Shown: positions 12,119-14,571 of the stretch, piece by piece | Layout: each line of letters opens with the position of its first letter | Numbering within the stretch: position 1 is the first letter of the stretch | DNA from: Lachnospiraceae bacterium | GTDB taxonomy: Bacteria; Bacillota; Clostridia; Lachnospirales; Lachnospiraceae | Assembly (NCBI GenBank): GCA_021770245.1 | Contig: JAETRI010000039.1 | Location: forward strand, 1 to 32,950 | Length of the DNA stretch: 32,950 bases | Direction of reading: 5' to 3' | The notes under the pieces: generated by a model | Database searches by the model: none | What the model saw: the letters and a program-made list of their open reading frames with translations, nothing else | Told to the model about the DNA's origin: nothing | Program-made: the position numbers and the translations under genes

Positions 12119-13258
12119 TTACAGATAGGCGGATACCAGGCTGATAACCAGCCCTCCGGCGATGACGGAAGCGATCTGGCCGGATACGTTTACCCCGGTA
12201 GCCTGCATGATCAGGATATTGCCCGGATCCTCCTTCAGAGCCATCTTTTGGACCACCCTGGCGGACATGGGAAAGGCGGAGATCCCCGCGGCCCCGATCA
12301 TGGGATTGATTTTTTCCTTTAAAAACAGATTGACGAACTTGGCAAAGAGTACGCCCCCAATGGTGTCAAATACGAAGGCCAGCAGCCCGATGGCCATGAT
12401 GAGCAGGGTATCCACGCGGACGAAAGCTTCTGCGCGCATGCTGAAAGAAATGGTGATGCCAAGGAGCAGGGTGATCAGGTTGGACAGGGTGCTCTGGGCG
12501 GTATCGGACAGGATGTTCAGCACGCCGCATTCCCGCAGGAGATTTCCGAACATGAGGAAGCCCACCAGGGCCACGGAGGCCGGTGCGATCATCCCCACCA
12601 GGAAGGTCACCAGGATAGGAAAAAGGATCCGGGTGGTTTTGGTGACGGGTCTTGCGGGTTTGGCGGCCATGCGGATACATCGTTCCCTGCGGGTGGTTAC
12701 GAGACGGATGGCGAAGGGCTGCACAATGGGCACCAGGGCCATATAGGAATAGGCGGCCACGGCGATGGGGCCCACATAGGCGGAACCCAGAACCTGAGAG
12801 ACCAGGATGGAGGTGGGGCCGTCGGCAGCGCCGATGATGCCGATGGAGGCAGCATCCCGCAGGTCAAAACCGAGGAGAACGGCGACGCAGAGGGCGAAGA
12901 AGATGCCAAACTGGGCGGCCGCGCCGAACAGGAAACTGATCGGACGTGAGAGCAGCGGGCCGAAATCGATCATGGCTCCGATCCCGATGAAGAGCAGGAT
13001 CGGCAGGGCTTCCGAGGCCTCGATTCCCGCTTCAAACAACCATTGAATGATGCCGTTTACCTCACCGATCCCGGCCATGGTTTGGTCAATGACGCCGGAA
13101 GAGGGAAGATTGACCAGGATCGCACCAAAGCCCATAGGAAGCAGCAGGGCCGGTTCGTACTCCTTTTTTATGGCCAGATAGATGAGCAGCAGCCCTACTG
13201 CATACATAACGATCTGCTGCGGGGTGATGGACAGAAAGCCTTCGTAGAGAAATTCCAT
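12119..13258 (-). CDS. Na+-translocating decarboxylase beta subunit (OadB/GcdB/MmdB type)
   Basis: This 379-residue polytopic membrane protein has the signature GIIGAADGPTS, with Asp146 at the position of the essential intramembrane aspartate that carries Na+ in oxaloacetate decarboxylase. Many hydrophobic segments and the LPILLFIGIGAMIDFGP motif fit the family. The beta subunit couples decarboxylation of a carboxybiotin group to Na+ export. No alpha (carboxyltransferase) or biotin subunit lies within the window, so its partners must be elsewhere or its role differs. ATG 13258 is chosen because AAAGGAG precedes it by about 7 bases. A 350-base leader holds a riboswitch-like element with a terminator (13428-13610), and the OadG-like gene follows. 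Confidence 0.92.
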   Translation of the reverse strand: MEFLYEGFLSITPQQIVMYAVGLLLIYLAIKKEYEPALLLPMGFGAILVNLPSSGVIDQTMAGIGEVNGIIQWLFEAGIEASEALPILLFIGIGAMIDFGPLLSRPISFLFGAAAQFGIFFALCVAVLLGFDLRDAASIGIIGAADGPTSILVSQVLGSAYVGPIAVAAYSYMALVPIVQPFAIRLVTTRRERCIRMAAKPARPVTKTTRILFPILVTFLVGMIAPASVALVGFLMFGNLLRECGVLNILSDTAQSTLSNLITLLLGITISFSMRAEAFVRVDTLLIMAIGLLAFVFDTIGGVLFAKFVNLFLKEKINPMIGAAGISAFPMSARVVQKMALKEDPGNILIMQATGVNVSGQIASVIAGGLVISLVSAYL

Positions 13259-13427
13259 AGGGGTTCTCCTTTCGCGATGGAAAGCTGCCTGCGGGACAGC
13301 TTTATGAAATAATGTTTTGTGCTGCATGGGCCGGATGATGATCAATCGGTCAGGGAAAAGACTTTCCCCTGCCTGCAGCCCGGCCATGCACCGCTCGGGG
13401 TTAGAATCCTTTTGTACGGGTCTGCAC

Positions 13428-13469
13428 ACAAAAAAACGAGACCTTTTGACCTATGCCAAAAGTCTCGTT
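13428..13469 (-). terminator. Intrinsic terminator in the oadB-type leader (riboswitch expression platform)
   Basis: On the minus strand AACGAGAC-TTTTG pairs with CAAAA-G-GTCTCGTT around the loop GCATAGGT. A run of seven T follows. The 5' half of the stem contains the conserved 3' core of the aptamer (ACGAGAC and TTTTGGC), so aptamer folding and terminator folding are mutually exclusive. Confidence 0.85.
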
Positions 13470-13610
13470 CTTTCCTAAAGTAAACGGCAGCATAAAAACC
13501 ATATTGTCCGCCGTATTAGAAAGTGCACGACCATGACTGCACTGCCCGAAAACAGGAAAAACAGCCAGGGGATGTTGATCGTACAGGTTACTACTCCCTT
13601 TTAACGTAGC
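13451..13610 (-). promoter_or_regulatory. yybP-ykoY-like (Mn2+ class) riboswitch upstream of the Na+ pump subunit
   Basis: Read on the minus strand, the leader begins with CTACGTTAAAA and then GGGAGTAG, and ends with AACGAGAC and TTTTGGCATAG. GTTAAAA pairs with TTTTGGC as helix P1 (extended by CTA/TAG), leaving GGGAGTAG and ACGAGAC as the facing loops, as in yybP-ykoY aptamers. Internal helices fit too: TGTACGATC with GGTCGTGCA, and ACGGC(G)G with C(T)GCCGT. The 3' aptamer strand is also the 5' strand of the terminator, so ligand binding should favour transcription (an ON switch). In known cases the class senses Mn2+. The gene downstream is oadB-type, not a recognised Mn exporter, which is unusual. 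Confidence 0.75.
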
Positions 13611-13613
13611 TTT

Positions 13614-13643
13614 ACCTTATCACTTCCTGCATAGGTCTGTCAA
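13614..13643 (-). promoter_or_regulatory. Promoter of the riboswitch/oadB-type transcript
   Basis: On the minus strand TTGACA (13643-13638), an 18-base spacer and TAAGGT (13619-13614). The expected start point falls at about the first base of aptamer helix P1. Confidence 0.6.
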
Positions 13644-13843
13644 GGGATTTGAAAAGGAACGGATAATCTTAGCGAAATCGTGGCACCCGTTCGGGCAAAA
13701 TATCCGGAATGTCTGAAAACCAGACATCAAAGCGGGAATGTCTATTGCATATTACAAAGGAAAAAGATAAGGTGAACCTATCAAATCTGATCTGCCGTGG
13801 AAATGCGGAAGGACGGTTCTTAAATACGGAAGGGAGAAAGGCT

Positions 13844-14491
13844 ATGAAGATGCAGAATATCTTAGCCGTGTGCATGATTGCAGTTACGGTTTCTTTCCTG
13901 GGATTTGTCGTAGAGAATGTATGGCTCGCCCTGACAAAGGGATACATGGATAACCGCAGTATGTGTTTCCCCTTTTTATTGGGTTATGGGCTGGCGATCG
14001 TTTTGCTCTTTCTGATTTTTGGGACGCCTGAGCAACCCTGTTTTTTCAAAAGAGAGATTCCGATAAAAAACAGGAGGGCGGAGCTTCTGCTCTATTCTGC
14101 GGGGGTGATGCCATGCATTTGTGCAGGGGAAGTGATATTGGGCACATTTGTGGAAAAAGTCTGTCATTTTCACTGGTGGGATTATTCCTCTATCCCGTTC
14201 CATATAACGAGATATACGTCAATTCCCACCAGCATGCTGTTTACGGCCGGAATCACTCTTTTTATGGATCGATTTTGGGGAATGCTGTATGAATATTATA
14301 TGGGATGGAGTATGGAAAGGCTGAGGATTACGGTAAGCGTGATGGGACTTCTCCTGATAGGGGATTTTGTCTATAGCAGCATAAGGATGTACCGGCTGCA
14401 GGGGATGATCCGAAGATGGAGAATTGACACGTCGGGAAGGTGGATATATAAAAAAATTCATCTCTGTAATACAGGTCAAACGCATGAATGA
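13844..14491 (+). CDS. CmpB-like multi-pass membrane protein (putative ABC-transporter type IV family)
   Basis: A 215-residue hydrophobic protein with about five membrane segments. Its N-terminal FLGFVVENVWLALTKGYMDNR and the later WDYSSIPFHI match a family found widely in Firmicutes and named putative ABC-transporter type IV; the actual function is unknown. ATG 13844 follows GGGAGAAAGG by 3 bases, and earlier in-frame starts lack a binding site. The last residues (GQTHE) and the stop codon are encoded by the left arm of palindromic repeat copy C, so a repeat insertion has replaced or trimmed the native C-terminus. The upstream gap 13644-13843 on this strand shows no clear promoter. Confidence 0.75.
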   Translation: MKMQNILAVCMIAVTVSFLGFVVENVWLALTKGYMDNRSMCFPFLLGYGLAIVLLFLIFGTPEQPCFFKREIPIKNRRAELLLYSAGVMPCICAGEVILGTFVEKVCHFHWWDYSSIPFHITRYTSIPTSMLFTAGITLFMDRFWGMLYEYYMGWSMERLRITVSVMGLLLIGDFVYSSIRMYRLQGMIRRWRIDTSGRWIYKKIHLCNTGQTHE

Positions 14492-14571
14492 CCCTGAGGC
14501 CCCTGCGCCACCCCTGTCCGGCCCGCGGCGCCGGACAGGGGTGGCGCAGGGGCCTCAGGGCGATCCATGCG
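14481..14571. repeat. Palindromic repeat family, long copy C
   Basis: A 31-bp perfect stem (14492-14522 with 14530-14560, built on CCCTGAGGCCCCTGCGCCAC) with a 7-base loop CCGCGGC lies inside outer arms CGCATG/CATGCG. This is the most stable structure in the window. It overlaps the stop codon of the CmpB-like gene. Confidence 0.85.

Follow-up and report, generated by a model that had tools for sequence, protein, structure and literature searches.

Genes encoding GDT1 and TerC proteins are known targets of Mn2+ riboswitches, which form the yybP-ykoY family (Rfam RF00080). In the crystal structures of these RNAs, as described in PMC6754395, Mn2+ is held by phosphates and by the N7 of an invariable adenosine, which in Xanthomonas oryzae is A48 in the loop ACAUACU, and A10 of loop L1 docks on helix P3.1. 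Both mneA and terC are named among the targets of the class (PMC13274385), and a predicted Mn2+ riboswitch has been placed 5' of the P-type ATPase gene CD2503 of Clostridioides difficile, whose orthologue in Lactococcus lactis protects against Mn2+ (PMC11477304). As to the direction of the response, the Mn2+ riboswitch of L. lactis is described as having an ON layout (PMC11087558, PMC9190785), whereas one review calls Mn2+ riboswitches OFF switches (PMC11477304). A second ion riboswitch, Na+-I (DUF1646 motif), is reported to occur occasionally 5' of oxaloacetate decarboxylase genes (PMC9337991). In the decarboxylase Na+ pumps, D203, S382 and N412 of the beta subunit (OadB) are described as Na+-site residues, E40 as critical for decarboxylation and R304 as affecting it, and Salmonella OadG binds the alpha subunit through its tail (residues 61-84), which is dispensable for binding of the beta subunit (PMC7274780).

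Here, we report on a leader found on the minus strand of a 32,950-nt stretch of Lachnospiraceae DNA (the window), upstream of a gene of the OadB type. The leader is a genuine RNA element, and its best reading, judged from its motifs and its relatives, is that of a putative P2-less member of the yybP-ykoY (Mn2+) riboswitch family. We propose, with a probability of roughly 0.8, that this P2-less Mn2+ riboswitch drives the expression of an orphan OadB with a role in Mn2+ tolerance. The structure of the RNA, its conservation, its family, the genes it accompanies and the paralogy of OadB come out of the computation itself, while Mn2+ as the ligand, the ON direction and the part played in tolerance are deductions. 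The earlier note, made on the letters of the window, had recognized both diagnostic loops, a P1 helix, a matching promoter and a terminator, all of which are found where it had put them (Table 1).

Table 1. Elements of the leader and of the transcription unit behind it in the window, with RF02617 matches in other loci
Feature	Position	Strand	Details
Promoter	13614..13643	-	TTGACA 13643-13638, 18 nt, TAAGGT 13619-13614; read from sequence
Putative aptamer, P1 to P1'	13455..13605	-	P1 GTTAAAAG 13605-13598 pairs CTTTTGGC 13462-13455
Loop L1, 5' strand	13587..13597	-	Begins GGAGTAG at 13597; GGGAGTAG invariant in 12 aligned leaders; A10-equivalent probably 13595 (position inferred)
Helix P3.1, 5' arm	13576..13585	-	Partner arm 13533-13524
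Loop L3	13568..13575	-	ACATCCCC; contains UCAACA; presumed A48-equivalent 13573, placed from the motif
Helix P4 and hairpin	13470..13523	-	13523-13518 pairs 13475-13470
Loop L1, 3' strand	13463..13469	-	AACGAGA, invariant in 12 aligned leaders
Intrinsic terminator	13430..13469	-	Hairpin 13469-13435, then T's
Orphan OadB paralog, 379 aa	12119..13258	-	ATG at 13258, preceded by AAAGGAG
OadG-like membrane stub, 41 aa	11958..12083	-	35 nt 3' of oadB
RF02617 matches (below cut-off)	L172 1844-1963; L148 1838-1950; L197 1839-1953		oadB leaders

The leader shares with RF00080 the L1 strands GGGAGUAG and ACGAGAC, an L3 with UCAACA and the invariant adenosine, and the order P1/L1/P3.1/L3/P3.2/P4, with a variable P3.2. 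The 216-nt stretch folds better than 200 of 200 shuffles (z -3.76), and TTGACA lies immediately 5' of the leader in 13/13 genus leaders; a consensus scan made no promoter call at this site. The 5' arm of the terminator includes P1', so that P1 and the terminator are mutually exclusive, and the competition for one strand that had been claimed, a further trait of the family, is borne out. The terminator fold is computed at -61.3 kcal/mol and the best P1-forced fold at the weaker -48.6 kcal/mol, hence keeping the RNA in its P1 form would take a ligand. These features suggest an ON switch in which, without ligand, the more stable terminator would form and transcription would stop near 13430, whereas Mn2+, bridging L1 and L3, would hold P1 and leave the terminator without its 5' arm; oadB and the gene for its small OadG-like partner would then be transcribed. 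A second strong hairpin (GCATGGCCGG...CCGGCCCATGC) lies at 13427-13260 (minus strand), between the terminator and the start of oadB.

At the DNA level, parts of the leader are matched in all of 13 Eisenbergiella genomes, that of the window included, and the core can be read through the 13 genus leaders. In the alignment of 12 genus sequences 335 of 336 cells are paired, with little variation; alignments A1 and A2 are without L011, whose aptamer is the same as that of L010, and L024 and the second L007 match stand in alignment A3 only. A covariance model built from the 12 genus leaders (R1) found relatives at E 0.01 in 26 of 299 family genomes and in 43 of 391 class genomes. In the alignment of 65 R1 matches (64 distinct), 97.0% of 1657 cells are paired, against 36-49% for slid partners, and two-sided changes occur at 23 of the 28 pairs, with covariation in all four helices, although this alignment was fitted to the model and its pairing and covariation numbers therefore lean towards it.

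The Infernal search with RF00080 that the earlier note had proposed found nothing in the window at the gathering threshold, and nothing between 13200 and 13800 with E relaxed to 10. The same model reported nothing across the window's own genome at E 0.001, and in that genome it left unreported even the mntP leader (L212, 1251-1348), which carries all the motifs as well as a P2 hairpin; over its cut-off (45 bits) it matched in none of 150 family and none of 196 class genomes. Since it passes its cut-off in no sampled genome, its silence on the window leader says little, and RF00080 was rejected as sole arbiter. The Na+-I (DUF1646) riboswitch was likewise set aside, since Rfam searches did not detect it in the window at the gathering threshold, or in 13200-13800 at E values up to 10.

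Below its cut-off, RF00080 does reach relatives of the leader. Among 20 R1 loci scanned with it, it matched two oadB leaders, that of L029 with 29.8 bits (E 2.4e-4) and, weakly, that of L027 with 20.5 bits (E 0.14); among 13 orphan-oadB loci scanned it matched five, from L164 at best (43.1 bits, E 2.9e-8) to L206 at the weakest (21.3 bits, E 0.088). Furthermore, R1 and RF00080 match overlapping stretches in genomes G373 and G417. A second model, R2, built from P2-containing oadB leaders, matches the mntP leader in each of the 8 loci (out of 10) where it bears the core, leaders of TerC and GDT1 genes, the P2-less oadB leaders L027, L029, L033 and L043, and other Eisenbergiella oadB leaders (L128, 23.8 bits, E 0.003; L192, 24.7 bits, E 0.002). 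At E up to 1, R2 has no match to the window leader (L025) or to L035; with neither RF00080 nor R2 matching it, the kinship of the window leader itself rests on its R1 relatives. The yybP-ykoY call of the earlier note holds on the loops, on the layout of P1 and terminator, and on the links that R1, R2 and RF00080 draw among the relatives.

In 3 of the 13 orphan-oadB loci, RF02617 (SSRC10, a Streptococcus sRNA) also matches below its cut-off over the same RNA, and in L172 its bits exceed those of RF00080. The consensus of RF02617 holds strings like GGGAGUAG and GAGACCU, so this family may be a relative and may itself be a yybP-ykoY-type leader.

The core bases, for which a comparison with confirmed Mn2+ binders had been proposed, agree with the family. 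UCAACA of L3, with the equivalent of the Mn2+-contacting A48, and both L1 strands do not vary among the 12 aligned genus leaders, and the same adenosine is invariant in 18 P2-containing oadB leaders. The window leader differs from RF00080 in that it has no room for P2, and so no four-way junction with that helix, in that P1.2 is reduced by eye to about 2 bp, most of it missing, and in an L3 one base longer than the consensus. Accordingly short distances between GGAGTAG and YCAACA, 12-16 nt, are seen in 61 of 65 R1 rows (4 rows were not scored), compared with 22-50 nt in the P2-containing sets and 24-26 nt in mntP leaders. P2 is present in other oadB leaders and in mntP leaders, and we infer that it is a variable element of the family. 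A P2-like hairpin seems to survive in three of the ATPase leaders (L049-L051). In L041, where an R1-type leader precedes a Na_Ca_ex gene, additional sequence that seems to form a hairpin sits at the position of P2, which suggests that P2 is easily gained or lost. A third leader subtype occurs 5' of oadB (L131, L142, L149, L154 and similar loci), with an L3 of the form CGUCAGUACGA, with P2 and, by eye, with an adenosine kept at the A48 offset.

That the leader controls a gene of the OadB type, as the earlier note had stated, is borne out; its description as a Na+ pump subunit has to be revised, since the gene is an orphan paralog and the carrier-linked pump operon of the same genome has an OadB of its own without such a leader. 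The product scores 491.6 bits with Pfam PF03977 and 395.5 bits with TIGR01109, and its AlphaFold model (mean pLDDT 81.5) superposes on 6iww with a TM-score of 0.83, against a much weaker 0.30-0.50 for NapA and CitS. It shares with the beta subunits OadB/MmdB the Pfam family, the fold and the Na+-site residues. Unlike the pumps (OAD/MCD/GCD), it has no linked biotin carrier, and a stub replaces the full-length gamma/delta subunit (OadG). This 41-aa stub has no Pfam match and fits best NCBIfam NF040909 (OadG_rel_small; E 7.2e-4), whose family of 37 positions it matches over positions 1-33 with 19.5 bits, below the curated cut-off of 25. A small OadG-like protein is encoded 3' of riboswitch-linked oadB in 11 of 12 cases with an ATG start, the twelfth showing the motif only.

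In the own genome (96% complete), one biotin-carrier match was found, in an operon that also encodes carboxyltransferase, a full OAD_gamma, HMGL/PYC_OADA and the second OadB. The search of 12 genomes for OadB gave 33 matches over the cut-off, of which 26 were used; left aside were L124 (no readable ORF) and six matches without a locus, five of them fragments in G216 and the sixth a whole match in G019, whereas L121 (fragmented) was omitted only from alignment A5, and L135 and L151 from A8. A biotin-carrier motif on the strand of the gene, within about 1.5 kb, accompanies 0 of 12 riboswitch-linked oadB genes and, just upstream, 14 of 14 others; one opposite-strand string of this kind lies near L117. 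The two sets form separate clades (100/100), with a mean identity of 46% between them and of 79% within the riboswitch set, and R1, R2 and a third model, R3, have 0 matches in the 14 biotin-linked oadB loci. D298, E83 and Q361 are specific to the orphan proteins, in which they occur in 81 of 81 rows. In orphan OadB, D146 is the residue equivalent to D203.

The association extends beyond one genus. When a collection of 84,980 genomes was scanned at the protein level, at least 588 relatives of OadB, of whatever kind, came up, and the best 80 were kept; these lean to close kin of the window gene (71-89% identity). All 80 group with it (at least 71% identity, against at most 47% for biotin-linked OadB). 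A looser biotin-carrier pattern occurs at 9 of the 80 loci, at none of them in a carrier-like context, and the small OadG-like protein at 44 by a stricter pattern. Directly 5' of oadB, 43 of the 80 loci have a yybP-ykoY-type RNA by R1-R3 (E 0.01 or better), and 37 have no such RNA by these models. Thirty of these loci, initially chosen for their motifs, served to train R2 and R3, but 41 of the 43 RNAs are matched by a model that was not trained on them. Conservation upstream of orthologous oadB genes, whose absence the earlier note had named as evidence against its proposal, is thus found. In two further loci the RNA heads an operon in which oadB comes second, after a Na_Pi_cotrans gene (L134, 66-3053) or after a CNNM (CorC-type) gene (L145, 450-3140; R2 E 0.061, R3 E 1e-6), and in L186 oadB is followed by a yybP-ykoY-type RNA and then by mntP. 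Conserved large neighbours of orphan oadB are few, the two largest clusters having only 6 and 5 members across the 80 loci.

What the orphan OadB does is suggested by the logic of the regulon and by its mntP neighbour: most likely its product works in Mn2+ tolerance beside MntP, as a paralog that has kept the Na+-site residues and has no adjoining gene for a decarboxylase or a biotin carrier. These data suggest that gut bacteria withstand an excess of manganese with the aid of this OadB-like protein. MntP is encoded in 11 of the 12 orphan-OadB genomes and GDT1 in 1 of 12; OadB is therefore no simple replacement of MntP, and the idea that it stands in for a missing exporter is weakened. More specifically, and tentatively, as we hold it to be somewhat short of an even chance, orphan OadB and its stub may form a hitherto unrecognized Mn2+ exporter, an elevator-type Na+-coupled secondary transporter derived from the decarboxylase pump by loss of the enzyme and induced by Mn2+ through the riboswitch in many Lachnospiraceae and Oscillospiraceae.

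The main rival on the function of OadB is that it still pumps Na+, drawing in trans on the carboxybiotin carrier that the C51 operon encodes, so that induction by Mn2+ would raise the sodium gradient for Na+/Mn2+ exchangers. The conservation of D203, S382, N412 and E40 in 81 of 81 orphan rows and the single biotin-carrier match of the genome are in keeping with such a pump, but R304 is kept in 12 of 81 orphan rows, whereas all 14 linked rows have R or Q there; N311 is kept in 56 of 81 as compared with 14 of 14, and the stub is devoid of the cytoplasmic tail by which, according to PMC7274780, OadG binds the alpha subunit. Na_Ca_ex is moreover present in just 5 of the 12 genomes, and we consider a pump in trans unlikely. 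On the same residue counts, loss of the carboxybiotin site was rejected as a general rule, being partial only; the Na_Ca_ex count also speaks against the idea that OadB powers Na+/Ca2+ exchangers.

A different objection concerns the ion. The earlier note had raised a variant aptamer with another preference, and the same fold could have shifted to Ca2+, Na+ or Mg2+; indeed, the longer L3 and the loss of P2 and of most of P1.2 could have altered affinity or ion choice. The genes behind the variant were examined at 55 loci (L025-L079) of the 69 distinct R1 matches, nine representatives being classed by Pfam and the others by blastp, except for L053, L068 and L072, which were classed by eye. The next gene encodes a P-type ATPase in 28 loci, Na_Ca_ex in 8, OadB in 7, GDT1 in 7, TerC in 2 and Na_Pi_cotrans in 1, and is unclassed or missing in 2 (L062 gave no class, and L046, at a contig end, no gene). 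The presence in this list of Na+/Ca2+ exchangers, Ca2+-type P-ATPases, a Na+/Pi cotransporter and OadB, together with the altered L3 of the window, could be taken for a shift of ligand. However, the P2-less form also precedes the 7 GDT1 and the 2 TerC genes which, with the 28 P-type ATPase genes, point to the association with Mn2+ export genes that is typical of RF00080. An L3 of RF00080 length is found by eye among R1 loci (L033, L047, L058), orphan oadB of other genera carries P2-containing RNAs, and a P-type ATPase, CD2503, is itself described as a predicted Mn2+ riboswitch target with a Mn2+-protective orthologue (PMC11477304). With the adenosine invariant, a different ion is neither shown nor needed, and we regard it as improbable; Mn2+ would be the ligand of the P2-less form as well.

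Finally, the idea that the motifs arose by chance and that the structure is a mere terminator with a folded 5' UTR, to which the silence of RF00080 on the window leader and the frequency of terminator-like sites in the region, not above that in shuffles, might lend colour, can be given almost no credit, since conservation, which we consider decisive here, extends to 13 of 13 genomes with two-sided changes across genera that already contradict chance, and since separately built models cross-match each other's leaders.

In open-licence full text, no paper was found that joins 'oadB' with 'riboswitch', 'manganese riboswitch' with 'oadB', or 'yybP-ykoY' with 'Lachnospiraceae'; the gene tables of the 2015 work that defined the class may already contain OadB. 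With this locus, the regulon of manganese riboswitches would gain a new gene and an architecture that lacks P2. In the sampled Clostridia, the RF00080 threshold keeps such switches from view, and the orphan OadB branch now has a testable role. Should orphan OadB export Mn2+, a subunit of a sodium pump would have become a metal transporter, and the riboswitch would have pointed to its substrate. Elsewhere in the window, a long inverted repeat (ctgaggcccctgcgccacccctgtccggc and its complement) forms a strong hairpin at 14494-14558, just past an ORF ending at 14491, and Rfam RF02975 (DUF3800-XI RNA) matches the plus strand at 198-245 with 65.6 bits, against a cut-off of 37.8.
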